From assembly GCA_024275975.1 (NCBI GenBank), contig JAJRYC010000080.1, positions 1 to 49,684 of the forward strand: DNA of 49,684 nucleotides. The letters run 5' to 3'. Of this stretch, positions 3,834-22,731 are shown piece after piece; the stretch's first letter is position 1; every line of letters begins with the position of its first letter. Both the position numbers and the translations under genes were made by a program. The notes beneath the pieces were generated by a model. That model had not been told where the DNA came from. It ran no database searches and worked only from the letters and a program-made list of their open reading frames with translations. The stretch is from Nitrospirota bacterium (GTDB lineage: Bacteria; Nitrospirota; Thermodesulfovibrionia; Thermodesulfovibrionales; UBA6898).

Positions 3834-4961
3834 CTAATTTTTCGAAGTATGGCATACATTACATCCATTTGTCGCAGCGTTTCCAGGCCATCCCTTGAAG
3901 TCCCATCTCAATAATTTATAATACGGAGAGGCATGGGAACGGTGGCATGAAATGCAGATGACAATATCAGTGCCCGGCGTCACGGCGGCGGTATTTATGA
4001 CATTATCAGGGTCCGGCCTGGCAACGGGCGCAACCAAGCTGTAAGTCGTGTAATTGGCGTATTCACCCGTGCTCTTCAATGCGATATCCGTCGGGTGCCT
4101 CAGCCACGGGCTTGCGCTGCCGACACCCAGGGAATTATGGAATCCGCCGCTCCCGCTGTTTCCGTGACACTGCCCGCAGAGATAGCTGATGGTCGAAACA
4201 GTGCTGAAATTCGTCGCCCCCTGGTACTCATTATGGCTTGTATTAATGTTGTCCTGTTCCCAGTCCGTATCTTCTTTTCCTGTTATGCCGTTCAGGAAAC
4301 GGTAGCTGAGGCCGACCGTGCCCCCGGTGATACCACCGGAATCATCTGTGTGGTGCGCTCCTGTTACCCCCACGATATTATTATTGCCAGTGCTTCTGTC
4401 TCCATGGCACCCGAATTCCCCGGCACAGGTCAACTGTGACGACATGGCCGAGCCTCCGGGCGGAGTGAGGCCGAGGGTGCTGTCCTGCGCCTTTATCCCT
4501 GATACATTATGCCCTGTCGAGTCATCGGCGATTGCATAGTAGAAGTTTCCACCGGCGAGTATGCTGGTGGGCGAGGTTGTGTTGTAGATAATGGGTGTAT
4601 TGTTTATTATGGTGACGGCCGTAGTACTGCTGTGACATCCGACGCAGTCATTCGTGAGCAGGGCGTCATATGGTCCGGACCCGCCCCATCCCGACGACTG
4701 CGTGCCGTTCTGGCTGTAATGCATTGTGTGGCAATTGCTACAATCACCTGTAACGCTAGAGACTGCCGTGGACGGAACGGAGAAAAGTGCTAGCGTAAAT
4801 AACAGGCATGGAATGAGATAAAGCGGCAAAAGCCTGTGGCGTATGGTGGAGCATTTGTTCAGGCCGGTTTCTTCAGTGTCTGATATATTTGTGTCATAAC
4901 CGGATATAAACGCTTTTGTACCCGCGTCTATGAATTTAATTGTATTTAAATTTAAGGTCAT
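3834..4961 (-). CDS. OmcS-like hexahaem c-type cytochrome, paralogue A
   Basis: It has six haem sites in the order CSNCH-TMH, CVGCH, CAGEFGCH (a CX4CH site), CGQCH, CISCH-RSH and CNVCH. The spacer motifs are shared with three paralogues in this window: LAGGNFYY, GHNVSG, GAHH, SYRFLNG, HNEY, SPWLRHPTD and LLRWD. The site order, the opening CxxCHTMH, the LRHP segment and the closing CHRxHAS...CxxCH resemble Geobacter sulfurreducens OmcS as I recall it, a filament-forming extracellular cytochrome. The open frame reaches a TTG at 5000, but that codon lies inside the sigma-54-type element, so I start at the ATG at 4961. This leaves about 40 residues before the signal peptide (RLLPLYLIPCLLFTLALF), which is unusually long; a later non-ATG start is possible. 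Confidence 0.8.
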   Translation of the reverse strand: MTLNLNTIKFIDAGTKAFISGYDTNISDTEETGLNKCSTIRHRLLPLYLIPCLLFTLALFSVPSTAVSSVTGDCSNCHTMHYSQNGTQSSGWGGSGPYDALLTNDCVGCHSSTTAVTIINNTPIIYNTTSPTSILAGGNFYYAIADDSTGHNVSGIKAQDSTLGLTPPGGSAMSSQLTCAGEFGCHGDRSTGNNNIVGVTGAHHTDDSGGITGGTVGLSYRFLNGITGKEDTDWEQDNINTSHNEYQGATNFSTVSTISYLCGQCHGNSGSGGFHNSLGVGSASPWLRHPTDIALKSTGEYANYTTYSLVAPVARPDPDNVINTAAVTPGTDIVICISCHRSHASPYYKLLRWDFKGWPGNAATNGCNVCHTSKN

Positions 4962-4996
4962 ATCGGGCTTTACGAAACTCTTTTCTAATGAACGCC

Positions 4997-5011
4997 GCAA
5001 TAATTATGCCA
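4997..5011 (-). promoter_or_regulatory. Candidate sigma-54 (-24/-12) promoter of cytochrome A
   Basis: On the minus strand the site reads TGGCATAATTATTGC: GG and GC separated by ten bases, matching the RpoN consensus TGGCAC-N5-TTGC. The predicted transcript starts near 4985, upstream of the chosen ATG at 4961. Confidence 0.6.
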
Positions 5012-5122
5012 CTTGTAACGCTCATATTACGCTAAAATGCCGGCGGTTTAATCCTGTTCAGTACGGAAAGTATGTAAGTGGCTATATAATGTATGGAAAT
5101 CATTATATGTCATCCGGCATCC

Positions 5123-6394
5123 TCATTTTTTATGGCACTGTATGCAAAGCTGCCTTTTCCTGTCAAAGGAGAGCATGAAATCGGCCCTCGCGGAATGTAT
5201 ACTGTGACATGAAATGCAGGTGACCTGTCCGCCGTTGCGCGGGTCGATAACGCCCGGTCCTAAAGGATGGGTGGTTTTATGCTCTGATTCATGACATCTG
5301 GAGCAGGTTGATATCTTGTCAGCCCTGAAATAGAGCGGTTCACCGGAATGGACCGGTATATGGCATTCAAAACATTTTCTGTTTTTGACGGGGTCGCACC
5401 CCTGGCCTTTCAGCGTCTTTTCCATCCGGGCTATCCTCTTCGCCGTACTTTTATGGCATGAGAGGCATAAGTCCGCCTCTTCAACCGTCAGGTTCTTCCT
5501 GCCGGAGGCATGGTTGTTGTGACACATCGCGCAGGCGTTCTTTGCCCCCTTGACGTGTATGTCCCCCTCCCTGAATTTTGAGGGGTCCTTCTCGTGGCAG
5601 CTGAAACACAGCGCCTCTCCGGGAAGCCTGGTGGTCAGAGGCGTATTGATTGAAACAGGGTTGTGGCATTGCCCGCACTTCCTGTCAAGAAACGCGGTGT
5701 GGCCGTAGGGGCCCAGCAGTCCTTCGGCATCGGAGCTATGTCCGGCATGACATGACGTGCAGTCCATGGATCTTGTAGCGAAAGATATCGGGACTCCCTC
5801 TGCCTTGCACCGGGGCTTATGGCAGCTTTTGCATAACTTCCCTGGCGCGGCCAGCAACTGGTTCTTTTCCCCGGATGCATGCGGATTATGGCATGACGAG
5901 CATTTCCCGTCGCTGAAAGGTTTGTGGACGTTAGCTTTTTCTGCATCGGCTTCAAGCCGCCCGTGGCATTCCCGGCAGAGATTTTTCTCTTTCGCTACCA
6001 GCAGGTATTTATTTTCGCTGCTATGGGCGTAATGGCAGTCGGTGCATCTGCCGTCTTTGAGTGCGCTGTGCACGCTTGCCTTTGAAAGAAGATTCCGGAT
6101 GTCCTTATGACAGCCAAGGCAGAGCGAGTTGATCTCGCTGTTCAACAGGCCTTTGATATTGCTCGTATGAGGATTATGACATGATGAGCAGAGGCCCTGT
6201 CTGAATGGAAAATGAACGTAAGCGCTGTTAAGATCACCCTTCAGTTTTTTATGACACTGGTAGCACAGTTCAGGCATGTCGGCCTTAAGGCCGTTATATG
6301 CATAGGCCTGCCCGCTCCATAAAAAGACGATCATCAGCATGGAGCATAGAGCATAAAGCAGAGTCGCCGGTATCTTTCTCCCTGTCTTATTCAT
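5123..6394 (-). CDS. Exported 16-haem c-type cytochrome (doubled CxxCH repeat type)
   Basis: The 423-residue protein has a signal peptide (LLYALCSMLMIVFLWSG, cleavage near QAYA). It contains sixteen CxxCH sites, mostly in alternating pairs of about 45 residues: LCxxCH, then a histidine-bearing linker, then CxxCHNPHxS. This is the doubled CXXCH arrangement. The second histidine after many sites (NPH, YAH, AGH, NNH) is a likely axial ligand. Its start overlaps the end of the 26-haem gene by eight bases, so the two are probably translated together and may form one conduit. Several residues near the end (CDPVKNRKCFECH) add an extra cysteine. A periplasmic wire is the simplest role. Confidence 0.88.
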   Translation of the reverse strand: MNKTGRKIPATLLYALCSMLMIVFLWSGQAYAYNGLKADMPELCYQCHKKLKGDLNSAYVHFPFRQGLCSSCHNPHTSNIKGLLNSEINSLCLGCHKDIRNLLSKASVHSALKDGRCTDCHYAHSSENKYLLVAKEKNLCRECHGRLEADAEKANVHKPFSDGKCSSCHNPHASGEKNQLLAAPGKLCKSCHKPRCKAEGVPISFATRSMDCTSCHAGHSSDAEGLLGPYGHTAFLDRKCGQCHNPVSINTPLTTRLPGEALCFSCHEKDPSKFREGDIHVKGAKNACAMCHNNHASGRKNLTVEEADLCLSCHKSTAKRIARMEKTLKGQGCDPVKNRKCFECHIPVHSGEPLYFRADKISTCSRCHESEHKTTHPLGPGVIDPRNGGQVTCISCHSIHSARADFMLSFDRKRQLCIQCHKK

Positions 6395-8351
6395 GGCAGA
6401 ACTTGCAGTCTCCCCTGAGAAATGGATTATGTCTGATTTTCTTAAGCATTCCCGGCTCTTCGGTTACATGTGGTTCATGACAGCCCAGGCATTTTTTGAT
6501 TCCGGCCAGGGATTTTCCGTGCGCCTTCATCAGGTTTTCCGTGTCTTTTTCATGGCATTTGAGACATAATGCCGGGTCTCCCTCGCTTACCAGGTTTTTT
6601 GATTCGGAATAATGGGAACGGTGACAGCTGAGGCAGTCTCCTTCTTCCATGCTTATATGGCCTTCTCTCACCCTTGTGGTGACTATTTTCTCATGGCATG
6701 AGAGACAGAGATCATTCGGGTTGCTCAAAAGCAGGTTGTTAATCTTTGTCACGTGCGGGCTGTGACATGTGGTGCACTTCCCTTCTTCAACGGGCATATG
6801 CCTGTTACTGCTCTTCTCCAGTCCGGATTCCATCGTCTTGTGACATTCATAGCACAGCTCCGGCATCGGTTCGACCGTGTTGGCGCTGAAGTCGCTTGCA
6901 TGGGGATCATGGCATTTTCCACAGGCGTTGTCTTTAAAAGGCTCATGCATGTCACTATCTTTGTACCCTAGGACCATGTCGCCGTGACAGCTCAGGCAGA
7001 GCTCTCCCATCTCATCCTTCAGCAGTTTCTCCTGAGTGGAAGCGTGCGGGCTGTGACAGGATATACACTGTTTTTTGGCGACAGGCGTATGAATGTACGT
7101 TTTTAAGAATTCCTGTTCCTCCTTTGCATGACAGGAATAACATAATTCGGACATCGGCACCCTGACCATGGCGGCATTGTTGCTTCCGTGGGCGTCATGG
7201 CACTTTGTGCATTCCAGGTCGGCGAACGGGAGGTGCGTATATTTCTTGTCCAGGTTCTTCTCTTCATTGATATGGCAACTGAAACATATTCGGTCCTTGC
7301 CGGCTTTCAGGTAAGACATATTTTCCGAAGAATGCGGGTCGTGGCAGGCCGTGCAGCCCTGTTCTTTTATCGGCTCATGAAGGTTGCTAACCTTGAATAT
7401 ACCAGACATCTCTTTATGGCATTTAATGCAGAGATCATTTTTATCCTCTCTGGTGATATTTGGATAATCCGTGGCATGCGGGCCGTGACAGCTCAGGCAA
7501 TCGCCGTCGGCCATGGGGCCATGCATGTATTTCTTTTTAAATTCATTCTCTTCTTCCTTATGGCAGGAATAACAGAGTCCGCCATCCGGTTGGATAACAT
7601 CAAAGGGTTTGGGATCTGTGGCCTCTTTATGGCATGAAGCACACTGCCGGAGCATTAAAGGGGCATGAACTGATTCCCGCAACAGGCTGTTGTTTGTCGA
7701 ACTGTGAGGAGTATGGCAGCCGGTGCATTTGCTCCTCTCAACAGGATAGTATTCATGGGCCTTTCTGAACCCCCCCGACTTGTAATCATGGCACGACCGG
7801 CAGAGAGCCGATTCCTCTTTAACGAGGTTGTACCTGTATTGTGAGCCGTGGGCCGCGTGACAGACGAGGCATCCGCCGGAGAGCGGTTCGTGGCGTTTGG
7901 CCCTCATAAAAGGGGTTTTATCGTGACATGTAAAGCAGATATCGCTGCCTGTTGTCTTCTGGAGCGCTTTGTTGTCCGATGCATGGGGGTCATGGCAGGC
8001 AATACACCTGTCCTGCTTCAGGGCGGTATGAATATTCGCCATCTTTTCGATCTCCCCGGCCATCCCGGAATGGCAGCGATAACAGAGTTTTGACTCCGAC
8101 CTTTCCCTGAGTGATTTAACGGCGATCTTTCCATGACGCAGATGACAGGCCTCACACTCCCGGTCACCGGCCGGCGCATGGACATATTTCTTGCCTAACT
8201 CGGGCAACTTCTCCTTGTGACAGTCCATGCAGGGCTTTGGCTGAAACCCCTTTCTCTCCTGTCTCTCTTCCGGCAGGCATGAGTTAATCAGGCTGAAAAT
8301 TAAAAATACCAGAAGAATTTTCAGTGTATTCTTTGCTATGGGCTTAATCAT
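6387..8351 (-). CDS. 26-haem c-type cytochrome, probable lipoprotein
   Basis: The 654-residue protein has twenty-six CxxCH sites at a near-constant density of one per 25 residues. They are arranged as tandem modules of LCxxCH followed by H-x-P and CxxCHxPHAS. The N-terminus is basic, then hydrophobic (LKILLVFLIFSLI), with a lipobox-like INSC at residues 22-25, so it is probably a lipid-anchored periplasmic or outer-membrane protein. The start has a good GAGGGAGT site just upstream. It lies 65 bases downstream of the prolyl isomerase gene and overlaps the 16-haem gene, consistent with one long minus-strand operon. The module repetition suggests growth by tandem duplication. Confidence 0.88.
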   Translation of the reverse strand: MIKPIAKNTLKILLVFLIFSLINSCLPEERQERKGFQPKPCMDCHKEKLPELGKKYVHAPAGDRECEACHLRHGKIAVKSLRERSESKLCYRCHSGMAGEIEKMANIHTALKQDRCIACHDPHASDNKALQKTTGSDICFTCHDKTPFMRAKRHEPLSGGCLVCHAAHGSQYRYNLVKEESALCRSCHDYKSGGFRKAHEYYPVERSKCTGCHTPHSSTNNSLLRESVHAPLMLRQCASCHKEATDPKPFDVIQPDGGLCYSCHKEEENEFKKKYMHGPMADGDCLSCHGPHATDYPNITREDKNDLCIKCHKEMSGIFKVSNLHEPIKEQGCTACHDPHSSENMSYLKAGKDRICFSCHINEEKNLDKKYTHLPFADLECTKCHDAHGSNNAAMVRVPMSELCYSCHAKEEQEFLKTYIHTPVAKKQCISCHSPHASTQEKLLKDEMGELCLSCHGDMVLGYKDSDMHEPFKDNACGKCHDPHASDFSANTVEPMPELCYECHKTMESGLEKSSNRHMPVEEGKCTTCHSPHVTKINNLLLSNPNDLCLSCHEKIVTTRVREGHISMEEGDCLSCHRSHYSESKNLVSEGDPALCLKCHEKDTENLMKAHGKSLAGIKKCLGCHEPHVTEEPGMLKKIRHNPFLRGDCKFCHE

Positions 8352-8416: not shown

Positions 8417-9595
8417 TTATCTCTTCAGCATTTTTTCATATGACCGCAAAACATCCTCATGGATTTTTATATCCGCATCCGCCTTCAGCCTGGCAATATA
8501 TGTTTTCATGAGGTTGTCCGCCTGCTCCCTGAAGCAGGCCCTGTAAATGTCATCTTTTACCTCCCCGAATCCCCTGGCCTCGGCCTCGATCCTGTCCTGG
8601 ACACGTATTATCCTGAAGAAAGAATCAACCCCGAATGCCGGGCTTATCTCTCCGGGCCCGGTCCTGCCGGCGACTTCCCTTTCGGGCTCCGGCAATTGCA
8701 TGATGTCGATCCAGCCGACATCGCCGCCGTCCCCGGCCGCGGAATCAACTGACTTTTGTCCGGCCAGCCATGAAAAATCAGCGCCGTTCCCCAGGCTTTT
8801 CAATATATCCCTTGCCTCGTCCATGGTCTTTACCGTGATCTGCTGGATCTTGATCATCTCCGGACCGGTAAAATCCTCCTGATGTTTTATGTAATAATCC
8901 TTCAGTTCTGCATCCGTAACGACAACCCCGGGTATGATTACCTTGTTGAAGAATGTCTTTTTCAGTAGTTGATTTTCATAACGGCTGACCTTGCCTTTCA
9001 GGTCTGTATTGACTTCATAAAGCCGGCCAAGCGCCTCATGGTCTATCACTTTGTAATTAATCCAGTTGTCGATCATCTGCTTTTTCAACTTCGGCATGTT
9101 TTTGTTCCTTTTGTACGCGGGTAATGCCATTGATACAAAATCCCCCGCACTCATAACAGAACTGTATACCCGGGCCAGTGGTCTTTTATCCTTCGACCAT
9201 TTTTCCGTTTGCTCTTCATTACCGTCCAGCTTAATGTCGGCAAGAAGCGCTTCATCAATATCGATGACAGCCTGTTCGCGGAGCTTCTCCAGGTAGCTCT
9301 TCTCCAGTTCCTTCTGCTTCTCCGCGTGAATAGTTTTTTTAATGCGTTTTTTGATATTCCCGAGACCCGCGCCCGGGGATTCTCCATCACCTGGTAGATT
9401 CAGGATGTAGTATTTACCTTCTACGTCCAGTATGCCGCTGTTTTGGCCGGGTCTGAGACCGGAAAGGGTCTCTTTAATCAGGGGTTTCAGAGAATGTATT
9501 GTATAAATGACTTCACCGCCGTCCTTGCCGGAGGCGTGGGTGGAAAGGGTTCGCGCGATTTCCCTGAAGTCGCCCCCTTTCCGGAGCAGGTCCAA
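8417..9595 (-). CDS. Parvulin-type peptidyl-prolyl isomerase, C-terminal portion (after frameshift)
   Basis: This frame continues the protein begun at 10053. The nominal TTG start at 9595 is not real: the frame is open further upstream and reads NYIRFGIIEAKSETDAEGI, joining the end of the upstream frame at the A-run of 9651-9657. It carries a degenerate first parvulin-like segment (GGDFREIART, GGEVIY) and a second, better one near the end (IKIQQITVKTMDEA, GADFSWLA, DGGDVGWI, EISPAFG). The linker is a long charged SurA/PrsA-like helical region. The role would be folding of exported proteins, plausibly the cytochromes encoded next to it. Whether a full-length protein is made depends on the frameshift being a sequence error or recoded. 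Confidence 0.75.
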   Translation of the reverse strand: MDLLRKGGDFREIARTLSTHASGKDGGEVIYTIHSLKPLIKETLSGLRPGQNSGILDVEGKYYILNLPGDGESPGAGLGNIKKRIKKTIHAEKQKELEKSYLEKLREQAVIDIDEALLADIKLDGNEEQTEKWSKDKRPLARVYSSVMSAGDFVSMALPAYKRNKNMPKLKKQMIDNWINYKVIDHEALGRLYEVNTDLKGKVSRYENQLLKKTFFNKVIIPGVVVTDAELKDYYIKHQEDFTGPEMIKIQQITVKTMDEARDILKSLGNGADFSWLAGQKSVDSAAGDGGDVGWIDIMQLPEPEREVAGRTGPGEISPAFGVDSFFRIIRVQDRIEAEARGFGEVKDDIYRACFREQADNLMKTYIARLKADADIKIHEDVLRSYEKMLKR

Positions 9596-10053
9596 TATTC
9601 CCTCGGCGTCGGTTTCAGATTTTGCCTCGATGATGCCGAACCGTATATAGTTTTTTTATAATAATTTGCGATCTCTTCCCCGGATACCGATATCCTCTGG
9701 ACGATCTCTTCATTGTAAAGCCTGGACACGGACTCCCTCAGTATGAAAGCCCGGACGGCCTCCCGGACTTCGGGGTACTGTTCCATGCCCATGCGCCGTG
9801 CTTCATCGGTGATCAGCCGGTCGTCTATCAGTTTCCGGATATACCTCGATATATCGAGGGCGCTGGCATTGGAGAGGTCCTCTCTTCTGTGAGCTACCTG
9901 CAACGCGTACTTAAGGTCGGCTTCCATTACAGGACTGCCGTCCACAACCGCGAATACATCCGGCTTATGATTCACCGGCGCGCAGCCCGGGAACAGAATA
10001 AATATGTATAAAAAGGCGATTAAAAAAGTCTTTGTTTGCATCCGTCCAGTCAT
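9487..10053 (-). CDS. SurA/PrsA-like prolyl isomerase lipoprotein, N-terminal portion (frameshifted)
   Basis: It starts with a lipoprotein signal (FLIAFLYIFILFPGC, lipobox FPGC) followed by FAVVDGSPVMEADLKYAL and LIDDRLITDEARRMG, the usual N-terminal SurA-type chaperone region. After EEIANYYKK (about residue 133) the frame loses similarity and ends in low-complexity sequence. At that point there are seven A residues (minus strand). One more A, or a -1 slip, connects it to the frame at 8417-9595, giving a protein of about 545 residues. It lies 33 bases after the CsgG-like gene. Confidence 0.75.
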   Translation of the reverse strand: MTGRMQTKTFLIAFLYIFILFPGCAPVNHKPDVFAVVDGSPVMEADLKYALQVAHRREDLSNASALDISRYIRKLIDDRLITDEARRMGMEQYPEVREAVRAFILRESVSRLYNEEIVQRISVSGEEIANYYKKTIYGSASSRQNLKPTPREYWTCSGKGATSGKSREPFPPTPPARTAVKSFIQYIL

Positions 10054-10086: not shown

Positions 10087-11262
10087 CTAATTACTATTAT
10101 GATAAAATCCCGCCGACTCCATTTTTTTTACTAATTCCGAAACCAGGTGTTGCGCCACACTATCAACGGACCTGATCCTGCCCCAGTCTAATACAGTAAT
10201 ATTATCATCGCCACTTAACCTGCCGCTCTCATACCATAAGATACTGTTTTTTCGTGCATCGATCAATCTGGCGGTGATGACCGCCTCCGGTGGAGAAGAT
10301 GTATCCTGTCCGTCCGAATAGAGTTCCACCGTCCCGACTAAAAAAACGTCCGCCGTCAACGGTTTTGAGAGGCCTTCGATGCTTCTGTAATCCAGCTCGC
10401 CTTTATATCTGACCCTTTGGTCCACTATCCATTTTCTGACCTCTCCATATTCTATCGGTTGAAATTTCCTGCTCTTGAATAACTCGGTTAAAAACATGTG
10501 GGAGACTATTATGCCTGCATCCTGTTTTCGGCTCTTGTTCAGAAAAGGCATGACGGCGACCTGGTATGTTGATTCCGTCTCTTTGTAAGCCGGTATGGCG
10601 CTGAAAGAGCTGAACAGTCTGTCAACTACCTTTGGAACCAGTCGTCCGATCGTCTTTACCGTGCCCAACCCCAGTATCCTCGTGAAATCCTCTCCGGTGG
10701 CCGAGGCGCAGTCCGCCCAGATGATCCGGTCGCCGGAGGTCCCAACCAGGCGGGCCATCAGCCCGAGCCCTGGATTTTCTTTTGTGTAAAAAGAACTGAC
10801 CGAGCCCATCAGGACGGCGTCCACCTTCAACTCGTTTCGTATCTTCCGGGCCAGGTCCTTTGAGATATAAGCGGTGGTCCTGATCCGTTCTTTAAGCAGA
10901 AACTTGTTCAGGCTTTTCTCCTCCAGCAGTACGTAACCTTTTCTTTCTAATTCGCTTCTTACCGCAGGCATGACCTGCGGCAGGACATCTATTGCATCGC
11001 TGTTGTTTTCGAACGGGAAGAGGGCGATCTTGCCATTAAAATCCTCTTTCGCCTGGGATTGCCGGTCAGCGTGGGCGGACCCGGGGGAAAAGAGCAGCCC
11101 GGCAAAGAGCATGGTCAACAGTGTGAAGAGCAGTAAACTCGCCCGGCCTCGCGGGCGGGGATTTTTTCTGATGGAGATGCGGTCCCGCCTGTTTACGCCG
11201 TGTTCCGGCGGACCGTCAATCTGTGTTGTTGGCGCGGGATTTTGATCTGTATTTCCATGCAT
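10087..11262 (-). CDS. CsgG/LpoB-like exported protein with two tandem domains
   Basis: The 391-residue protein has a long basic N-terminus, a hydrophobic segment (SLLLFTLLTMLFAGLLF) and a cleavage-like AHA. It then has two copies of the fold found in CsgG, LpoB and GNA1162 proteins. The first begins KIALFPFENNS and includes DAVLMGSVSSF. The second begins QVAVMPFLNKS and includes ADVFLVGTVELY. The family includes periplasmic and outer-membrane secretion or assembly factors. It sits in a run with two smaller paralogous lipoproteins, an outer-membrane barrel and the prolyl isomerase, so a part in exporting or anchoring the cytochromes is a reasonable inference. No catalytic motif is visible. 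Confidence 0.65.
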   Translation of the reverse strand: MHGNTDQNPAPTTQIDGPPEHGVNRRDRISIRKNPRPRGRASLLLFTLLTMLFAGLLFSPGSAHADRQSQAKEDFNGKIALFPFENNSDAIDVLPQVMPAVRSELERKGYVLLEEKSLNKFLLKERIRTTAYISKDLARKIRNELKVDAVLMGSVSSFYTKENPGLGLMARLVGTSGDRIIWADCASATGEDFTRILGLGTVKTIGRLVPKVVDRLFSSFSAIPAYKETESTYQVAVMPFLNKSRKQDAGIIVSHMFLTELFKSRKFQPIEYGEVRKWIVDQRVRYKGELDYRSIEGLSKPLTADVFLVGTVELYSDGQDTSSPPEAVITARLIDARKNSILWYESGRLSGDDNITVLDWGRIRSVDSVAQHLVSELVKKMESAGFYHNSN

Positions 11263-11265: not shown

Positions 11266-11847
11266 TTAGTATTCAGTCAGCGTCCGGACGCATTCTCTCA
11301 CCACCTTTAGCATGGTCTCGCTCATTGTATCCGACCTGGCGCCGAAATGCCTGGACATGAAACTGTCTCCAACCGCTGTTTTTGTTACGGACCAGATGAT
11401 GCTTCCTGAGTCTGTGTCCGCCATCATAAGGGTGATCGTCACCTCCGGCGCGGAAACATTTCCGGTCCTGACGACTTCGAACCTCTCGACCGAACCAAAG
11501 ATCACCGCCTGAACATTGAGCGCCTTCCCTATAGTCTTTATCTGTTCCGCGTTCAGAGAGGTTACAGCCCTGATTCCCGACTTGTTGATCGCCGACATCA
11601 CATCTCCCGGGACTACAACGTCCACAAGACCTGAAACCAGCAGCTCATGGATAACCACCTGCCTCACGGCTTCATCGGCGGACCTGTCGGCGGTAAGATT
11701 ATCCAGCGGCAGGACGGCCACTTTTTTTATGAAGCTGAAGTCTATATCCTGCCGGATATGAAATGAAGGAGCGGGGCTGCTGCATCCGGAGATGATAAAG
11801 ATTACAAGTAATAAACCTGTCCGAAAAAGCTTTTCTGAAAATTTCAT
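11266..11847 (-). CDS. CsgG/LpoB-like lipoprotein, copy 1
   Basis: The 193-residue protein has a clear lipobox (LLLVIFIISGC, cysteine about residue 22). The domain then reads VAVLPLDNLTAD, LLVSGLVDVVVPGDV, IGKALNVQAVIFGSVERF and GSIIWSV, the core of the CsgG/GNA1162 fold. It is a paralogue of the next gene upstream (11861-12463), with the same EVTI/EVSI-NLML strand, SxxIIWSV and a closing xRHFG motif. Only three bases separate it from the two-domain CsgG-like gene, so the three are co-transcribed. Members of this fold form rings or bind periplasmic partners. Which applies here is unknown. Confidence 0.7.
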   Translation of the reverse strand: MKFSEKLFRTGLLLVIFIISGCSSPAPSFHIRQDIDFSFIKKVAVLPLDNLTADRSADEAVRQVVIHELLVSGLVDVVVPGDVMSAINKSGIRAVTSLNAEQIKTIGKALNVQAVIFGSVERFEVVRTGNVSAPEVTITLMMADTDSGSIIWSVTKTAVGDSFMSRHFGARSDTMSETMLKVVRECVRTLTEY

Positions 11848-14815: not shown

Positions 14816-14844
14816 CCTTCTTAACCCCGGCAACAGGTCTCAAG

Positions 14845-16443
14845 TCACGGCTGGTACGGAAACATGGCTATGCCATAGGGATGCCGTCCTACCGGTATAA
14901 CCCGGTCCACCTTTCTCGTGGTCTTGTCTATTACCGAAATATTGTTTGAGCCACTGTTTGCTACATAGATTTTCCTGCCTTCAGGATCCAGAATCAGCGC
15001 CCCCGGAGAATTTCCGACAGGTATGGTCCCTATAATAGAAGGCAGCGCCGTCCTGAGTGAGTCGAAACTCCCGAAAAAAGGCCTGATAACAACTATTTCT
15101 CCAGGCGATTCCCTTAAAAAATAAATCCTGTCAAACGCGGGATCAGCAACCACGCCTGTGCCGTAATTTCCGACATTGCTTATGGAGCTGACCGAACCCG
15201 AGTAGTTTCCTTTCACGATCTCAGGGATATCTATTACCGAAATATTATTGAAGCCGTGGTTGGCGACATAAACCTTGCCTCGCTGATAGTCTACTGAAAG
15301 TGCAACAGGGTCCCACTCCACGTCCAGGCTGATCACCTCTTCACATCTGCCGCTGAAGAGGTCCATCTTCAGCAGGGAGAGACTTTTGTAATTTTTATTG
15401 ACCACGTATACATTGAGATATTTTTCGCGGTAAGTCCTCAATAAACTGATATCATCATGGCTCAGGAACCTGGTCCCCGTCAGGCTTTCAACAGGCGGAT
15501 CTACGGCCACCGCCACGGGACCGTTGCCCACCTCGATTTTTTCTATCTCCTGAAAGGTTGAAGCGTCAATAACGGAGACATTGTTAGAGCGGTAGTTGGA
15601 GACGAAAACCAGTTCGTTTCCCCCTGCCACGCGGCCCACGGCTATGCCCACCGGCTCCCGGCCGAATCTGACCGGTATCTCGTTTTCTATTGTATTGGTA
15701 GTAGGGTCTATCACTGAAATACTGTCAGAGCCGGAATTTGCAACATATACCTTCATCAGATCTTTTCCGGAGCTTGTAGCTATGCCCCTCGGCTTCCTTC
15801 CAACCATTATTGTCGCCACTACTGTTCCGGTCTGCCTGTTGATGACGGAGACATTGTTCGAGTCCTCGTTGGTCACATAGACAAGCAGACTGCTCAGTTC
15901 AGGAGACTGGCCCCTGACGGTTATTAGAGGGCTGAACCGGTATCCGTCAACAATGGATGCGTCCGAATTCCAGCTCAGGAATAATGAAGTGTTCCTGTTA
16001 TGGCTTACGGTAATATCCAGTGGTATCCTGATTACTCCACTGTCCACCGCCAGGTCCGCCATCGTCTCTTTTCTTTTAATGGACGCTCTGCTTACGGCCA
16101 GTATGAGTTCCCTGTACCCGCCTTCGGGAAGGGGCCTTTCTCCCAAAAGCATCTGGCGGCCCTTGCTCTCGATGGAATTTATCCTGATTGGCGCGCTTCT
16201 TATCTCCCTGGAAGTTCCATCATCAGCCATGATTTTTACCGCCGAAAGATTAAATGTGATATCCAGCTTTGCGTTCTCAGGCCCGTTCAGAAAGACCGTA
16301 ATCTGGCCGCTGTACAGACCGGAAGGTTCTTCAGGTTCAGTAAGCGTGGCGCAGCCCGTCAGGGCGACCAGGAGTATAAAGCATGTAGCAGCGAAAGATA
16401 TTTTGTATCCTGCCGCCTTCCTGGTTGTCCGCCAATTACTCAT
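14845..16443 (-). CDS. YVTN-type beta-propeller lipoprotein
   Basis: The 532-residue protein has a lipobox (ILLVALTGC). An N-terminal beta-rich domain (residues ~40-180, with FLNGPENAKLDITF) precedes a seven-bladed propeller made of YVTN repeats. Repeat signatures are VYVTNEDSNNVSVIN, VYVANSGSDSISVID, VFVSNYRSNNVSVID, VYVANHGFNNISVID and IYVANSGSNNISVID, each followed by a V-G-xxPxGIA strand. Such propellers act as surface scaffolds or bind partners and polymers. It is 11 bases after the NHL propeller gene and just before the outer-membrane barrel, so all three are likely co-transcribed. Confidence 0.85.
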   Translation of the reverse strand: MSNWRTTRKAAGYKISFAATCFILLVALTGCATLTEPEEPSGLYSGQITVFLNGPENAKLDITFNLSAVKIMADDGTSREIRSAPIRINSIESKGRQMLLGERPLPEGGYRELILAVSRASIKRKETMADLAVDSGVIRIPLDITVSHNRNTSLFLSWNSDASIVDGYRFSPLITVRGQSPELSSLLVYVTNEDSNNVSVINRQTGTVVATIMVGRKPRGIATSSGKDLMKVYVANSGSDSISVIDPTTNTIENEIPVRFGREPVGIAVGRVAGGNELVFVSNYRSNNVSVIDASTFQEIEKIEVGNGPVAVAVDPPVESLTGTRFLSHDDISLLRTYREKYLNVYVVNKNYKSLSLLKMDLFSGRCEEVISLDVEWDPVALSVDYQRGKVYVANHGFNNISVIDIPEIVKGNYSGSVSSISNVGNYGTGVVADPAFDRIYFLRESPGEIVVIRPFFGSFDSLRTALPSIIGTIPVGNSPGALILDPEGRKIYVANSGSNNISVIDKTTRKVDRVIPVGRHPYGIAMFPYQP

Positions 16444-16454: not shown

Positions 16455-17411
16455 TCAGTCTTTGTCCATCGGTTTTTGACGAAGTTCATATACCTCAACC
16501 CTGTTATTGAATGTGTCCGCAACCAGTATCCTGCCCTTTCTGTCTACTGATATTTCCCTGGGGTACTGGAACCAGCCCTTCCCCCAGCCGAGGCCGCCGA
16601 ATTCAGCCAGGTATTCGCCGCCCCTGTCATATATGTTTACAGTATGCCGCATATAGTCTACAACATACATAAGTCCGTTGCGGTTATCAATCCCGACTGC
16701 CAGCGGCCTGCTCAGTTTGGCGCTGCTGCCGCCCTTAACGCCGAATTTAAAGAGGAACTTTCTATCTTTATCATATACGTATACACGGCCTTCCTCCTCG
16801 CTGACGAGATATATTTTTCCCTCCCGGTCCAGGGTGACACTGGTTAACTTCACCTTCCGACCGTTTTCCTCCGGAGTTATTATTTCCGTTAAACCGCCTT
16901 TTTCGTCGAGAACCAGGACACCCGGGAAATAGGTGGCGGCCACATATATATTCCCATTTTTGTCGATGGCCAGACGGAAAGGGACAAACGAATCCGATCC
17001 CTCAAACCCCTGCATATAAATGTCCCGCTCCCACTTCAGGCATGCATTAAAGACGGAAATCCTGGGTCTCGGATTACTCACGCTTTTAGCCTGGGCGACA
17101 TAGAGCCTGCCTTCGGCGTCAAGCGTCAAGCCCTGCGGCGCTTCAATGCCTTTCCGTTTATCGAGGGTAAAGAGGGCGAAAAGATCGGATGTATATATAA
17201 TGATCCTGCTCTTGCCGTCAATTACGTAAATTTCGTCCCTGACCGGCTCGGCGTAAACAAAAGAAGGAAAAGACAGCCTTCCGTCTTCTTCATCGTAAAG
17301 TATGCTGTCCAGATTATTCACGGGACCGGTCCGTGTCTGCGCGTTAACCTGACGGCCAGGGAGAAAAACAGATAACGCGAGCGTGATAATTACAGCAAGG
17401 GTTCGAATCAT
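16455..17411 (-). CDS. Exported NHL-repeat beta-propeller protein
   Basis: About 318 residues. The signal peptide (TLAVIITLALSVFLPG, cleavage near VNA) is followed by NHL repeats: PQGLTLDAEGRLYVAQA, RLAIDKNGNIYVAATY, LDREGKIYLVSEEEG, AVGIDNRNGLMYVVDY and REISVDRKGRILVADTF-NNRVEVYE. I use the ATG at 17411, preceded by GGGGAGG; a TTG at 17423 is in frame but would contain that site. It is the first gene of the long minus-strand unit. NHL proteins are found beside extracellular cytochrome genes in Geobacter, including near OmcS as I recall, which supports a role with the cytochromes. Confidence 0.82.
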   Translation of the reverse strand: MIRTLAVIITLALSVFLPGRQVNAQTRTGPVNNLDSILYDEEDGRLSFPSFVYAEPVRDEIYVIDGKSRIIIYTSDLFALFTLDKRKGIEAPQGLTLDAEGRLYVAQAKSVSNPRPRISVFNACLKWERDIYMQGFEGSDSFVPFRLAIDKNGNIYVAATYFPGVLVLDEKGGLTEIITPEENGRKVKLTSVTLDREGKIYLVSEEEGRVYVYDKDRKFLFKFGVKGGSSAKLSRPLAVGIDNRNGLMYVVDYMRHTVNIYDRGGEYLAEFGGLGWGKGWFQYPREISVDRKGRILVADTFNNRVEVYELRQKPMDKD

Positions 17412-17430
17412 ACTCCTCCCCAATCAACCT

Positions 17431-17628: not shown

Positions 17629-18774
17629 CTAATCCGCGTTTTTGCTGGTGTGGCATATAAAACAGCCGTTATCTGTGGTGCCTTGTCCCGCCTGTATAGT
17701 GGAATAATCCCACCTCAGAAGGTCGTCCTGTGGAGAGCCGTGCGCCCTGTGGCATGACAGACACATTACTATGTCGGTTCCGGGTGTAACCGTAGCGCTG
17801 CTGGTAGCTGGGACTGAAGCTCTGGCGACCGGCGCTTCAAGGCTGTATGCATTGCTGTTGTCTGGGTTATATGTGCTATACTCGCCGCTTGAGGGCAGAG
17901 CAATATCCGTCGGGTGTCTCCGCCATGGAGACGCGCCCCCGGTTGTATCATCGATCCTGCTATGGAAATAACCGTGGCATTCAGCACAGAGGAAGCTGAT
18001 TGTGGTTTTATCACCATAAGTTGTGCTTGCCAGGTCCCTGTTTGTAGGACTGTCAACACCAAAATATTCGTTGTGAGCCGTAGTTGACTCGCCATAATTC
18101 CAGTTGGAATCCTCCAGACCGTAGATACCTCCCAGGAATCTGTAACTGCTTCCTACTGATGTTCCCCCGTTCGTACCGTCGGACTGAGTGGCGGTTCCAC
18201 CAGTATTTCCATGGTGGGCTCCGGTAATGCCGGTAGAGTCGTGCTGTCCATGGCACCCATACGTCCCGGCGCATGTGACCTGGGTGCCGGAACTCCAAGT
18301 GCCGCCTCCAACCTGTCCATAAGTGAACCCTGACGTGGCGCTTGCATCCCATCCGGGAGGTGTGGTCAGTTGTGCATCAGCCGCCGCAACACCCGACATA
18401 TTGTGCCCGCGGGCGTCGGTTGCGCCGAGGCCTGTTGCGACCCAGTAAAAGTCGCCGCCGGCCAGTGTGTCGCTGCCACCCTGGCCAGTTGGAGCAGTCG
18501 TATGTAGTACTATCGGGGCGCCAAAACTGTTTGTCTGGGTGGCGGTGTCGCCTGAGTGGCAGCCCAGGCAGCTTCCTTTAAGCAGGTAATCCTGGGGAGT
18601 GGTTCCACCCGTAGTCCTGGAACCGCCGGAAAAGTCAGTGACCTCGCCTGCTCCGTTCTGGCTGTTGTGCATGGTGTGGCAGTTTGAACATACACCTGTG
18701 ATTGCAGATCCGGAACTGGATACAAAAACAAGTGATAGTATTGCTAAGGAAATTATTAGCAGTATATTTCTCAT
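17629..18774 (-). CDS. OmcS-like hexahaem c-type cytochrome, paralogue B
   Basis: The 381-residue protein has a signal peptide (ILLIISLAILSLVFVSS, cleavage near GSA). Its six haem sites are at about residues 29 (CSNCHTMH), 69 (CLGCH), 168 (CAGTYGCH, CX4CH), 263 (CAECH), 338 (CLSCHRAH) and 371 (CFICH). Conserved histidines for distal ligation sit in GHNMSG, GAHH, HNEY and RRHPTD. The Gly/Thr/Ser-rich spacers and short ordered structure resemble extracellular filament cytochromes. The start ATG has an AGGGGG site eight bases upstream. It has its own sigma-54-type promoter and a strong terminator, so it is a single-gene unit, the most independently expressed of the four paralogues. Electron transfer outside the cell is inferred from the OmcS resemblance. 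Confidence 0.85.
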   Translation of the reverse strand: MRNILLIISLAILSLVFVSSSGSAITGVCSNCHTMHNSQNGAGEVTDFSGGSRTTGGTTPQDYLLKGSCLGCHSGDTATQTNSFGAPIVLHTTAPTGQGGSDTLAGGDFYWVATGLGATDARGHNMSGVAAADAQLTTPPGWDASATSGFTYGQVGGGTWSSGTQVTCAGTYGCHGQHDSTGITGAHHGNTGGTATQSDGTNGGTSVGSSYRFLGGIYGLEDSNWNYGESTTAHNEYFGVDSPTNRDLASTTYGDKTTISFLCAECHGYFHSRIDDTTGGASPWRRHPTDIALPSSGEYSTYNPDNSNAYSLEAPVARASVPATSSATVTPGTDIVMCLSCHRAHGSPQDDLLRWDYSTIQAGQGTTDNGCFICHTSKNAD

Positions 18775-18857
18775 TGTACGACCCCCTTAGTTATGTAAAT
18801 TTGTCACTTGTGTCGTTAATACTCGTATCTTTTAGTACCCATTATAGTATTTAAACC

Positions 18858-18872
18858 GCAATTATTATGCCA
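18858..18872 (-). promoter_or_regulatory. Candidate sigma-54 (-24/-12) promoter of cytochrome B
   Basis: The minus strand reads TGGCATAATAATTGC with ten bases between GG and GC. It differs at one base from the site in front of cytochrome A. It predicts a start near 18846 and a leader of about 70 bases. Confidence 0.65.
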
Positions 18873-19209
18873 AACATCTAAAGTGAATTCCGAAAAACTA
18901 CTGATACATTGTATTTCAGACGATACCTTTTTTGCAACAATATTTTCAATCACTTTTCCTGATTAATGATATATCCGTGAGACCCTGTAATTTCACTGCT
19001 GAAAGGCGGTCTTGGTAAAATGGGCCATCCCTGATATCGCGACCCTCATTACCCATCTTCGCTGGTTTTAATTTTTAATGATAACACCTTGTTTACCATG
19101 GACGGACAAGCGCCCGTTTCCGTTTATGTGTCGTAGATTACACAAACTATGTGTTGTCTTACATACTATCCAGGGAAGCCTTGATTTATTTTCGGCTGAA
19201 TTCCGGGGG
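18873..19209. other. Gene-free interval upstream of cytochrome B
   Basis: No convincing gene is present. The stretch next to the sigma-54-type site would be expected to hold activator binding sites; an ATAC-AAT-GTAT inverted repeat occurs about 40 bases upstream of it. The rest shows nothing I can name. A weak ACACA/TGTGT inverted repeat near 19140-19155 might end the cytochrome C transcript. Confidence 0.4.
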
Positions 19210-20262
19210 TCATCTCCCCTTCCGTGAATGGCAGGTGAGGCATCCGGTTCCCTGGACACCACTCTCAACAACCATCTTGTCATAGTCCCATCTCAACAGA
19301 TCTGGATAGGGACTTGCATGGGCCCTGTGGCAGGAGAGGCACATCACAATGCTCTCCATATTAACAACCTCCTCTCCGCCTGTTGGCTGGATATACGCCA
19401 CCGGCGCTTCAAGGCTGTAACTGATATAGTTCTGATATTCAGACCCTGTGTAGCCGCCCAGCACGCTGCTGAACGCGATATCTGTGGGGTGTCTGATCCA
19501 GGGGCTGCTGTTATAAGCATACCCCACCTCTCCAGCGCCGCCGAGATTCGGGTGCGCATGGAATTTCCCATGGCATTCACTGCAGAGGTAACTTATGGTA
19601 TCCATCGTGCTGTGGCTGATATCGCCTTTGTACCCGTTATGATTGTCGATTGTGGCCTGATATTCCCAGTCTTTATGCTCCTTGCCTTTTATCCCGTAAA
19701 GAAAGCGATAACTGTCGCCTACTGTCTCGCCCTCAATAATCCTGTCGTCCGCGTGATGAGCTCCTTTAATGGACTTATAGGGATCCTCTATCGTTCGGTT
19801 TCCATGACAGCCCCATGTCCCGGCGCATGTGAGCTGCTGTTGCTGCGGCCATTCCGTCGGGCCTGTTCCGCCGGGGACCGTAACTCCCTTTAAAAACCCG
19901 GGGGGTATATTCATGGGCGGCGGCTCCTGAAGCGATATCCCGGCGACATTATGCCCCTTTGAGTAATCGGGATTGTATCCATCCGCGACATAATAGAAGT
20001 TTCCGCCGGCAAGGTCTCCATCAATCATATGATGCAGCACCTGGGGTGTTCTGACCTTGCCTTCGGTAATTATATTCCTGATCCCGTCAGGCTCCCGGCC
20101 GTGGCATCCCAGGCATCCGCCCCTGGTCAGCGCGGGGAACGGTTCCGCGGCGTGCATATTATGACAATCCCTGCATTTCCCCTTCACCCTGGCATAAAGA
20201 GGTGTCGACATTGCGTCGCATATAATAAAAAAAAGAATCGCGATTAAAAAAACTTTTCTCAT
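19210..20262 (-). CDS. OmcS-like hexahaem c-type cytochrome, paralogue C
   Basis: The 350-residue protein has a signal peptide (VFLIAILFFIICDAMS) and six haem sites in the family order: CRDCHNMH, CLGCH, CAGTWGCH (CX4CH), CSECH, CLSCHRAH and CLTCH. Linker motifs shared with A, B and D include AGGNFYYVADG, GHNVAGI, GAHHADD, SYRFLYGIKGKE, SPWIRHPTD, YSLEAPVAY and LLRWDYD. It follows cytochrome D by 86 bases with no promoter recognised between, so both are probably on one transcript. The spacer between haems 2 and 3 is shorter in glycine and threonine than in B, so the paralogues are not recent copies. Confidence 0.85.
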   Translation of the reverse strand: MRKVFLIAILFFIICDAMSTPLYARVKGKCRDCHNMHAAEPFPALTRGGCLGCHGREPDGIRNIITEGKVRTPQVLHHMIDGDLAGGNFYYVADGYNPDYSKGHNVAGISLQEPPPMNIPPGFLKGVTVPGGTGPTEWPQQQQLTCAGTWGCHGNRTIEDPYKSIKGAHHADDRIIEGETVGDSYRFLYGIKGKEHKDWEYQATIDNHNGYKGDISHSTMDTISYLCSECHGKFHAHPNLGGAGEVGYAYNSSPWIRHPTDIAFSSVLGGYTGSEYQNYISYSLEAPVAYIQPTGGEEVVNMESIVMCLSCHRAHASPYPDLLRWDYDKMVVESGVQGTGCLTCHSRKGR

Positions 20263-20348: not shown

Positions 20349-21407
20349 TTATTCTCCCTTTTCCGTATGGCAGATAAAACATGCGCCCTTGCCCGCCTCT
20401 CCGGCGGTGACAGCATCATAATCCCACCTTAAACTGAATTTATAAGGACCGGCATGCGCCATATGGCATGACAGGCAAAACACAGAGTCCGAGCCCGGCC
20501 TTACTATTTCGCCCAGGTCACTGGTGAGGCTGCCTCTGGCGACCGGGGCCTCCGTACTGTAGATTCTTTCGCCGGTTTTGCCGGGAGGGGGAGGGTCGTC
20601 AGGGTTATATTTTAGATATTCTCCTCTTTCCGGCAGAATAACGCCGGTCGGGTGCCTGAGCCAGGGGCTCTCTTTGCCTGTATTGATGCTTCCATGCAGA
20701 TCACCGTGGCAGTTCGCGCAGAGCCTGTTTATTCCGGATGTATATTCATTATGTTTTTTGGGAGAACGGTTGCGTTCCCACTCATCATCCTCTATGCCGG
20801 TAACACCCTTTTCCTTGCCGGTAATCTTCAGAAATCTGTAGCTCCTGGCTGTTGTACTTCCGTCGATGGGCCGATCTTCAGCATGATGGTTTTTCATGAT
20901 CGCCTTAAACGGATCTTCTATGTTGCGGTCGCCGTGGCAGCCATTGGACCCCGAGCATGCCAGTGTTTTCCCTGGATTATAGCCGATCACGGAAGGGTCT
21001 GACTGTCTGTCATATCCCGGGGGGGCGCCATTATGTTTCCTGTCCACGGGCGCAATACCATCGACATTATGTCCGTACCTGTCGCCGAAATCCCTGGAAA
21101 CATAATAGAAATTTCCGCCTGCCAGAGGCTTTACGGGTTCAACATGGTTGAAGACAACAGGCACATCGACTTGACCGATGTGTTTTAACGTGTCCCTTGT
21201 GCTGTTTGTGTGGCAGTCCACGCAGAGGGCGTTCTGGAGCACAAACTTCAGCGGTCCGCCTGGAGCGGACTCCAGCATTCCGGGATAGAGACCGTGACAG
21301 GCCTCGCAATCTCCGGTGATTTTGGCCTCTGCCTCCCGGCAGGCCAGCGCCGCGAATGCAACAAACAGGAAGAAGGCCCCGAGTATGATTATTCCATTTT
21401 TTTTCAT
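20349..21407 (-). CDS. OmcS-like hexahaem c-type cytochrome, paralogue D
   Basis: Six haem sites: CEACHGLY, CVDCH, CSGSNGCH (CX4CH), CANCH, CLSCHMAH and CFICH. Family motifs include LAGGNFYYV, GHNVDGI, NHHAED, SYRFLKI, HNEYTSG, SPWLRHPTG and LRWDYD. I start at the ATG at 21407 (MKKNGIIILGAFFLF signal peptide); the frame is open to 21443 but that stretch overlaps the sigma-54-type element. It is the most diverged of the four: the first site lacks the TMH and the loop after it is shorter. It leads the D-C pair. A filament subunit or an interacting cytochrome are both possible. Confidence 0.84.
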   Translation of the reverse strand: MKKNGIIILGAFFLFVAFAALACREAEAKITGDCEACHGLYPGMLESAPGGPLKFVLQNALCVDCHTNSTRDTLKHIGQVDVPVVFNHVEPVKPLAGGNFYYVSRDFGDRYGHNVDGIAPVDRKHNGAPPGYDRQSDPSVIGYNPGKTLACSGSNGCHGDRNIEDPFKAIMKNHHAEDRPIDGSTTARSYRFLKITGKEKGVTGIEDDEWERNRSPKKHNEYTSGINRLCANCHGDLHGSINTGKESPWLRHPTGVILPERGEYLKYNPDDPPPPGKTGERIYSTEAPVARGSLTSDLGEIVRPGSDSVFCLSCHMAHAGPYKFSLRWDYDAVTAGEAGKGACFICHTEKGE

Positions 21408-21427
21408 AACCTGATATTTATAAACTA

Positions 21428-21442
21428 GCATAAATAATGCCA
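21428..21442 (-). promoter_or_regulatory. Candidate sigma-54 (-24/-12) promoter of cytochromes D and C
   Basis: The minus strand reads TGGCATTATTTATGC: GG and GC with ten bases between, weaker than the other two because the -12 block is ATGC. The implied leader is only about ten bases long. Confidence 0.5.
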
Positions 21443-21461
21443 CTATTTAATGTCAAAACTC

Positions 21462-21501
21462 TGATTAACCTTAAATATCGTATAAAATTCATGCAACATT
21501 C
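21462..21501. repeat. 40-base shared element, copy 2 (upstream of cytochrome D)
   Basis: Similar to 17431-17470 over its length (ATTAACCTT, ATCG, AAATTCATGCAA). Here it lies about 20 bases upstream of the sigma-54-type site, a position suitable for an activator. Confidence 0.4.
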
Positions 21502-21565
21502 GGGTCAGGTTAAGCATAAAGATCTGTCTGAACACCCCCAGTTCTGTAAATTCCGGCGCAGTAGC

Positions 21566-21865
21566 TTATTTTTTGTTATACGAGTGACAATTAAGACAGA
21601 GTTCAAAGGGTTTCGTCGCCTTGTATCTGAAGAGCTTCATGTATTCGGAGCTGTGCGGATTATGGCAGCTGGCGCATGAAAACTCTCCATACCTGGCCTT
21701 CGGGTCTTTCCTGTCCCTGAGCGGATGACCTGCCTGGGTAAAACCGCTTGCGGCATGTGGCGACTTTGCTATCTCCGGGTGGCACTGCAGACAGCCGTCG
21801 GTCGTCGGAAGCCGGAGCAGAGACGTATACGGTGACGCATGGGGTTTGTGACAGACCGGGCACAT
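21566..21865 (-). CDS. 15-haem cytochrome, C-terminal portion (after frameshift)
   Basis: This frame holds CPVCHKPHASPY, CLQCH, CASCHNPHSSEY and CLNCH. It is open further upstream, where it also reads PTLCFNCHDKGEFN, the expected next module of the protein that starts at 22731. The connection lies at the A-run near 21964-21969. The ATG at 21865 is therefore internal to the original gene. The order KKLLIADIPTLCFNCH restored by one extra A matches the repeated module (KLLLKSVPGICFTCH) upstream, which makes the frameshift interpretation secure. Confidence 0.8.
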   Translation of the reverse strand: MCPVCHKPHASPYTSLLRLPTTDGCLQCHPEIAKSPHAASGFTQAGHPLRDRKDPKARYGEFSCASCHNPHSSEYMKLFRYKATKPFELCLNCHSYNKK

Positions 21866-22731
21866 TCCCGCTGAAACAGGGGGATGCTGGTTCTTCCTGT
21901 TGAACTCTCCCTTGTCGTGGCAGTTAAAACAGAGCGTTGGTATATCGGCGATGAGGAGTTTTTTGCATCGCCCTGATGTGGTTCATGGCAGCTCAGACAC
22001 ATTCCAGCCTCAACAGGGGGATGTTCGTATTTGTCCTCGAACTCGGCCTGGATATGACAGGTAAAGCATATGCCGGGAACCGATTTCAGAAGCAGCTTTT
22101 CGGCAGCGGATGCATGCGGATTATGGCAGCTCAGGCACTTACCCTTCAGTACCGGCGCATGATGTTTCTTCTTTGTATCTGAAATATAGAGATCTTTCTC
22201 ATGGCAGATAAAACATAGGTCCGGCGGCTTCGAGACAAGCAGTTTCTCTATATTACTGCTATGCGGATTATGGCATGATGTGCACATTCCGCCGGCCACG
22301 GGCGGATGAGTGGATTTCTTCTCGAATTTTTCCTTGTCATGGCAATTGAAGCAGAGGCCGGGCGTTGCCGTGATGAGAAGATTAGGGTTGTCCGATTTAT
22401 GCACGTAATGGCATGAGAGACACATGCCCTGGGCGACGGGCGGATGCTGGATTTTCCTTGTGAATTTTTTCCTGTCATGGCAGGTAAAGCAGAGGTCCAC
22501 TCCCGTCGCGAAGAGAAACTTTTGAGGTTTCGCCTCCATCTCATGTGGTCTCGTATGGCAGGCCACGCATCCGCTTTCTTTGATAATCGGATGGACCACC
22601 TTCGCATCCGTCTTTCTCTTGTGGCATAATAAGCAGTCAGGGAATTGCTTGGAAAATGCCGGTCCGGGAAAGCTGAAGACAAAGGCTGTAGCAATCAAAA
22701 AGGATAAAAATATGGCGCGATATATATTCAA
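21769..22731 (-). CDS. Exported multihaem c-type cytochrome, N-terminal portion (frameshifted)
   Basis: The signal peptide (AIFLSFLIATAFVFSFPG, cleavage near AFS) is followed by ten CxxCH sites in modules of LCFxCHDKxxF, HPPVxxGMC, xSCHxPH. The frame leaves this pattern after EPHQGDAK (near 21965) and reads unrelated sequence to its stop. The minus strand there is GCAAAAAACTCC, phased as A-AAA-AAC, a canonical -1 slippery heptamer. A -1 shift restores five more haem sites, total fifteen. The start codon is a TTG preceded by AGAGGT. It is a doubled-CXXCH cytochrome, probably periplasmic, with its own sigma-70-type promoter. Confidence 0.8.
   Translation of the reverse strand: MNIYRAIFLSFLIATAFVFSFPGPAFSKQFPDCLLCHKRKTDAKVVHPIIKESGCVACHTRPHEMEAKPQKFLFATGVDLCFTCHDRKKFTRKIQHPPVAQGMCLSCHYVHKSDNPNLLITATPGLCFNCHDKEKFEKKSTHPPVAGGMCTSCHNPHSSNIEKLLVSKPPDLCFICHEKDLYISDTKKKHHAPVLKGKCLSCHNPHASAAEKLLLKSVPGICFTCHIQAEFEDKYEHPPVEAGMCLSCHEPHQGDAKNSSSPIYQRSVLTATTRESSTGRTSIPLFQRECARSVTNPMRHRIRLCSGFRRPTAVCSATRR

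Follow-up and report, generated by a model that had tools for sequence, protein, structure and literature searches.

The filament cytochrome OmcS of Geobacter has histidine at all 12 axial haem ligand positions, of which 11 belong to the same subunit and one, at haem 505, comes from the neighbouring subunit (PMC6584659). The genes GSU2500-2493, which lie downstream of GSU2501 in every genome that has an OmcS-like GSU2501, have recently been tied to the maturation and secretion of OmcS, and one of them, GSU2495, encodes a protein of about 70 kDa with 26 haems (PMC12977616). This block has been named the osc (omcS-companion) operon, in which OscH is proposed to act in folding, OscE, OscF and OscG in secretion and OscD in morphology (PMC13194489), and the operon has already been described as widespread (Shen 2025, cited through PMC12977616 and PMC13194489). 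The secretion, anchoring and membrane coupling of cytochrome filaments are regarded as speculative or unresolved (PMC12307469). Here we describe a stretch of 49,684 nucleotides from an uncultured Nitrospirota bacterium (assembly GCA_024275975.1, contig JAJRYC010000080.1; the whole stretch is called the window below), which carries a near-complete copy of the Geobacter gene set for the construction and export of haem-protein nanowires, together with sulfite-reductase genes.

Kinship with OmcS

Four genes on the minus strand, at 20349..21407, 19210..20262, 17629..18774 and 3834..4961 (named below by their lower coordinate), encode hexahaem cytochromes that can be aligned over their full length and have GHN, YRFL and RHPT motifs in common; the original prediction, made from the letters of the window, had given these open reading frames (ORFs) and these motifs, the second of them as SYRFL. 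The other three copies are 40-54% identical to 17629. A profile of the four sequences found OmcS in the Protein Data Bank (PDB) at E 3.9e-12, and a family profile of 67 sequences found it at E 2.4e-20, with nitrite reductases as the next matches at E 3e-4. Such a hidden Markov model search for the OmcS family had been suggested in the original prediction, and its outcome goes beyond generic multihaem similarity.

AlphaFold2 models of 17629 (predicted local distance difference test, pLDDT, 80.6; predicted template modelling score, pTM, 0.82) and of 20349 (pLDDT 76.3, pTM 0.68) were compared by Foldseek with 350,542 PDB chains, and the sole confident match for both was OmcS (6ef8; E 1.1e-5 and 7.5e-5, respectively). 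Realignment to OmcS covers 272 residues in both cases, with Z 17.1, 3.9 Å and 30% identity for 17629 and with Z 16.4, 4.1 Å and 24% identity for 20349. Foldseek gives modest whole-chain template modelling scores, 0.42 and 0.46 by query length, together with a high root-mean-square deviation, which we attribute to a loop-rich fold that wraps around haems missing from the models. Profile and modelled fold both put OmcS far ahead of all else in the PDB; judged by these two comparisons the four cytochromes have a specific kinship with the filament cytochrome of Geobacter, as had been proposed.

Compared with OmcS (PDB 6EF8, 6NEF), the window copies are alike in the order of haem motifs, in the GHN, RHP and CLSCHRAH motifs and in overall fold, whereas they are about 30% identical over the aligned residues, have extra conserved HH and HN histidines that replace H63 and H144 of OmcS, and include one copy, 20349, that lacks the equivalent of H16. 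As putative multihaem filament subunits they also resemble OmcE and OmcZ, from which they differ in haem number (four and eight, respectively); neither protein was among the profile matches or the Foldseek matches in the PDB, which is not evidence of differing folds.

Each window paralogue has five CxxCH motifs and one CX5CH motif, and none of them therefore has the six CxxCH motifs of an OmcS-type filament cytochrome. The odd motif is that of haem III, which had originally been read as CX4CH and in fact has the spacing CX5CH (e.g. C-AGTYG-C-H). A single CX5CH occupies this region in 120 of the 158 sequences that could be anchored, and a close homologue with the same site occurs in a metagenome-assembled genome of the Desulfofervidaceae. 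CX5CH is probably a true haem site, because sister paralogues have CxxCH at the same place, with its closing Cys-His at the matching position before the HH pair and often with an extra site upstream, and because the family-specific HH/HN histidines are present. A filament cytochrome with non-standard spacing of a haem motif is known in OmcZ (PMC9473688); a literature search on CX5CH haem sites returned nothing relevant, which is weak evidence of absence. One of the sister paralogues is a fifth hexahaem cytochrome of the same genome, encoded outside the operon on another contig (C29; 1444-2550 of locus L007), in which CX4CH stands beside CxxCH in the haem III region, and which possibly binds seven haems.

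Two further motifs had been ascribed to all four copies. The first, CxxCHxMH, is present in 17629 and 3834 (both CSNCHTMH) and in 19210 (CRDCHNMH, with CAGTWGCHG at haem III), and it is missing in 20349, where the first haem motif reads CEACHGLYPG; a genome-wide search with a DNA pattern for CxxCHxMH accordingly matched three window copies and the paralogue on C29, not 20349. The second, CLSCHxAH, is replaced in 3834 by CISCHRSH. The observations of the original prediction were sound in their open reading frames and neighbouring genes and in error on haem III spacing and on the universality of CxxCHxMH.

Synteny with the osc operon

The genes that accompany the four cytochromes were searched with profiles built solely from osc genes of Desulfuromonadia, for which the OmcS-bearing clusters L125-L138 served as the comparison set. 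G. sulfurreducens was not among the genomes searched and is represented by relatives, whose best OmcS (in L132) is 73% identical to that of G. sulfurreducens. All eight companion gene types are homologous, gene by gene, to the osc genes of Desulfuromonadia, at E 7e-27 to 2e-180. The names OscD to OscJ are assigned to window genes by inference from gene order and from published descriptions, and all of these genes lie on the minus strand. Downstream of 17629 comes an NHL propeller gene (16455..17423; E 7e-27), whose homologue in osc operons stands at the 3' end, followed by an OscD-type YVTN beta-propeller gene (14845..16443; E 3e-61) and by an OscE-type gene for a large barrel-like outer-membrane protein (12542..14833; E 2e-56), which has no match in Pfam or NCBIfam. 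Two OscF-type genes for CsgG-like lipoprotein-type proteins (copy a, 11861..12463, E 7e-30; copy b, 11266..11847, E 1e-36) precede an OscG-type gene for a larger CsgG/FlgO-like protein (10087..11262; E 2e-46) and an OscH-type gene for a PpiC-type prolyl isomerase (8417..10053). The run ends with an OscI-type 26-haem cytochrome of 654 amino acids (6387..8351; E 2e-180; 37% identity to L132) and an OscJ-type 16-haem cytochrome (5123..6394; strong scores with both multihaem profiles), after which 3834 forms the 3' hexahaem gene of the operon.

The original prediction had noted the prolyl isomerase, the NHL and YVTN propellers, the CsgG-like proteins and the barrel among the cytochromes and had likened them to the neighbours of Geobacter filament cytochromes. 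All of them are found there, in an order nearly identical to that of the osc operon, and the list was incomplete in that the 26-haem and 16-haem cytochromes of the same operon had been left out. In Desulfuromonadia the order is OmcS copies, YVTN, barrel, small CsgG-like, larger CsgG-like, PpiC, 26-haem, 16-haem and NHL, while the usual order in the fetched Nitrospirota loci is one or more hexahaem genes, NHL, YVTN, barrel, two OscF-type genes, OscG, PpiC, 26-haem, 16-haem and again a hexahaem gene. When gene order was tested, the run YVTN-barrel-CsgG-CsgG-PpiC-26-haem-16-haem was kept, with NHL displaced and OscF doubled. The Geobacter operon (GSU2504-GSU2493) thus holds the same set of hexahaem, YVTN, barrel, small and larger CsgG-like, PpiC, 26-haem, 16-haem and NHL genes, and the window differs from it in having the NHL gene upstream of the YVTN gene, a doubled OscF-type gene, CX5CH at haem III, a hexahaem gene with H16 at the 3' end and one without it at the 5' end. 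The core run is present in 45 fetched loci; since the operon had also been described as widespread before, the machinery is not new, and by gene content and order the window locus is a member of this known, widespread osc machine. Cultured bacteria are among the carriers of osc, namely Thermodesulfatator autotrophicus (L032) and Thermodesulfobacterium hydrogeniphilum (L052).

Two cytochrome genes flank the operon. Downstream lies an 8-haem cytochrome gene (2441..3778, minus strand), a place where several related operons have a gene for 7-8 haems. Its product has a run of ten glycines ahead of the last haem motif. Upstream, a paired-CXXCH cytochrome ORF (21769..22731, minus strand) has 10 CxxCH motifs and is apparently shortened by a frameshift at about 21980-21990, at an A6 run; several relatives have 13-19 haems here. 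The prolyl isomerase is likewise present and split, by a frameshift at about 9640-9660 near an A7 run, into two overlapping ORFs (9487-10053 and 8417-9595; E 1e-37 and 2e-10 for the two pieces). Because both genes continue in another frame, sequencing or assembly error is the likely cause; phase variation is possible.

Among the fetched loci, L153 has the largest tandem array, with six hexahaem genes (18572-19591 and neighbours) in one osc operon. A contig that is binned as an Asgard archaeon (Heimdallarchaeota; L089), most likely through a binning error, carries an osc cluster of bacterial appearance (PpiC, 26-haem, NHL, hexahaem, YVTN).

Loss of a conserved histidine in one paralogue

Nearly all members of the OmcS clade share twelve conserved histidines: H13, H16, H51, H63, H110, H144, H147, H243, H257, H332, H335 and one C-terminal. 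We take H16, paired with H332, to be the bridging donor histidine. Its equivalent is present in 17629, as H36 of the precursor, and in 19210 and 3834, and it is missing in 20349. A tree of 214 hexahaem cytochromes assigns every window copy to a separate group of like-placed genes, and the group of 20349 is a Nitrospirota clade of 17 sequences with support 100. The H16 position is the one position of the histidine ledger at which this group differs completely from the remaining window-type groups: it is occupied by Y, F or V, with tyrosine in the window copy and in most of the clade. The group retains both histidines of CLSCHxAH, those of GHN and RHP and those proximal to haem, and all its members keep the haem-5 acceptor histidines. 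The stretch from haem motif 1 to haem motif 2 is free of histidine in 17 of the 18 proteins of the 20349 type, whereas 214 of 217 hexahaem proteins of other types have at least one there.

In 18 of 18 loci the 20349-type gene stands directly upstream of another hexahaem gene, and in 16 of the 18 this downstream partner falls into a single clade, to which 19210 belongs in the window (the partners in L156 and L158 are aberrant or truncated). A second histidine-less set of eight sequences, seven of which form a clade with support 99, is located at the 3' end of Geobacter-type osc operons; this group was counted apart, and a histidine between haem motifs 1 and 2 is present in 0 of 8. Outside the two groups there are single H16-less exceptions in L012 (CTSCHTMYNK) and L156|15758 (CSFCHSRNLA), and some osc operons have no histidine-less hexahaem gene. 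Sequences that a script had flagged as H16-less were set aside as truncated, as having a misread start or as other proteins (L086|2158, L101|2917, L113|2947, L173), and L114|1 and L116|1 were also set aside in the tree. The loss of H16 is limited to defined clades in which the other conserved ligand histidines are kept.

These groups call for a revision of the idea that four equivalent paralogues give different filaments or one mixed filament: the OmcS kinship and the Geobacter-like neighbourhood of the original interpretation stand, and each paralogue comes from a clade of its own that has a typical place in the operon, with one paralogue devoid of the inter-subunit histidine. The copies 17629, 19210 and 3834 keep a bridging-type histidine and are candidate filament subunits. 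Since 20349 has no such histidine, it should not polymerise in the manner of OmcS in both directions; having kept the haem-5 site and lost H16, it could receive a neighbour and not bind onward.

Proposed function and alternatives

Our results suggest, with a probability of roughly 0.7, that the locus is an osc operon that makes, folds and exports OmcS-type filament cytochromes for electron exchange with an outside partner, and that 20349 is a one-ended terminal or non-polymerising subunit. The hexahaem cytochromes would be exported to the periplasm, where haem would be attached. By analogy with the work on Geobacter, the OscH-type isomerase would fold the subunits, a channel of OscE-, OscF- and OscG-type proteins (barrel and CsgG-like) would carry them outward, the OscD-type propeller would affect filament form, and the 26-haem and 16-haem cytochromes would link the periplasm and the wire, feeding or draining electrons on the periplasmic side. 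Head-to-tail assembly would proceed through the H16 equivalents of 17629, 19210 and 3834, and the resulting surface or extracellular filaments would pass electrons between the cell and the outside partner. With an acceptor haem 5 and no donor, 20349 would fit at one end only or stay unpolymerised, and it presumably acts with its tandem partner 19210.

Several points weigh against this reading. Filament formation by the window paralogues is itself inferred, and in Geobacter wire formation is known for OmcS itself and for none of its homologues (PMC12977616). Haem III is CX5CH in the window copies and CxxCH in OmcS, and the OscH-type gene is broken in this assembly. The role that we assign to H16 fits the histidine ledger, which supports it indirectly. 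It is also contested that OmcS filaments have any part in long-range transfer (PMC11077965).

What 20349 does in such an operon is the point at which explanations diverge. On the one hand, it may most simply be an end-piece of the filament, either base or cap. In its general form this idea holds that osc operons include a gene for a dedicated end-subunit, a cytochrome of the OmcS type that lacks the inter-subunit histidine and so starts, caps or anchors the filament; the histidine would apparently have been lost in two lineages, in Nitrospirota from the gene at the 5' end and in the Geobacter type from that at the 3' end, and the tandem partner would begin the polymer. We hold this general form tentatively. 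A base anchored as a lipoprotein was ruled out for the 20349 type, in which a lipobox-like motif was found in just 1 of 18, and a literature search for an OmcS end-piece returned nothing relevant, which is weak evidence of absence. On the other hand, and with the same tentative standing, 20349 could stay unpolymerised in the periplasm and load electrons onto the filament, either as an electron carrier or as a partner of 19210 with a chaperone-like role. The loss of H16 by itself predicts no polymerisation, and both the fixed tandem partner and the lack of an anchoring lipobox would suit a carrier; however, 20349 retains the OmcS fold, and the haem-5 acceptor histidines are kept in all members of its group, so that haem 5 of a free monomer would be one ligand short unless the partner supplied it.

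It is rather unlikely that the exported OmcS-like cytochromes act at the cell surface as monomers or short oligomers, serving as terminal reductases or mediators in place of long filaments, and that osc is a general hexahaem export system which Geobacter later used for wires. It has been considered that secretion may have been the earlier task of the cluster, before it was taken over for nanowires, because GSU2501 is in every case accompanied by it and OmcS is not (PMC12977616), and at 30% identity over 272 aligned residues the window copies are distant from OmcS. Nevertheless, the bridging histidine, needless in a monomer, is kept in nearly all members save those of defined clades. We give very little weight to the proposal that 20349 polymerises anyway, with tyrosine, for example, or another histidine as the haem-5 ligand: tyrosine does occupy the position in the window copy and in most of its clade, yet the variation between Y, F and V makes it an improbable replacement ligand, and a histidine between the first two haem motifs is missing in 17 of 18. 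Finally, it is hardly credible that the paralogues are generic multihaem cytochromes of the periplasm without a particular link to OmcS, for although their Pfam matches are of the paired-CXXCH type only and phmmer, run on the PDB with a single sequence, did not recover OmcS (owing to its low sensitivity, which the profiles overcame), OmcS is singled out by both profile and fold searches, and the synteny of the operon concurs.

Genomic context and significance

The window contig is part of a 2.5-Mb genome that is 96.9% complete. The dsrABD genes that had been credited to the host are represented by dsrA and dsrB (42536-44876 of the window) and, following them, by an ORF of 82 amino acids that was judged dsrD-like by eye only. 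The dsr genes would fit electron uptake for the reduction of sulfate or sulfite as well as electron export, and the current could run in either direction. Electron uptake has been proposed for the sulfate-reducing partners of methane-oxidising archaea, in whose OetABI/OmcKL clusters OmcS homologues are likewise proposed as filament subunits (PMC10553843). An OetABI-type porin conduit was not identified here in a search of the genome with the MtrB/PioB model, the only model used, to which control genomes were equally silent; a search of a plasmid collection gave no match. Elsewhere in the window, the genes hsdM and hsdR of a Type I restriction-modification system, with a HigA-like antitoxin-type gene in between, lie at 28344-35124, and serine O-acetyltransferase (cysE) and cysteine--tRNA ligase (cysS) occupy a single frame of 708 amino acids at 45882-48008, as a fusion or as an effect of assembly.

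With this locus, a full nanowire-assembly operon is placed in a member of the Nitrospirota that has dsrAB, and 34 of the 44 matches to paired-CXXCH motifs in the genome are concentrated on the window contig; extracellular electron exchange is therefore likely to be a trait of this Nitrospirota lineage. The locus also brings forward a conserved, position-fixed paralogue that has the acceptor side and no donor histidine, and which is therefore a direct and testable candidate for an end-piece. If the idea of a dedicated end-subunit is true, this protein would be a candidate for the way in which a cytochrome wire terminates or joins the cell.

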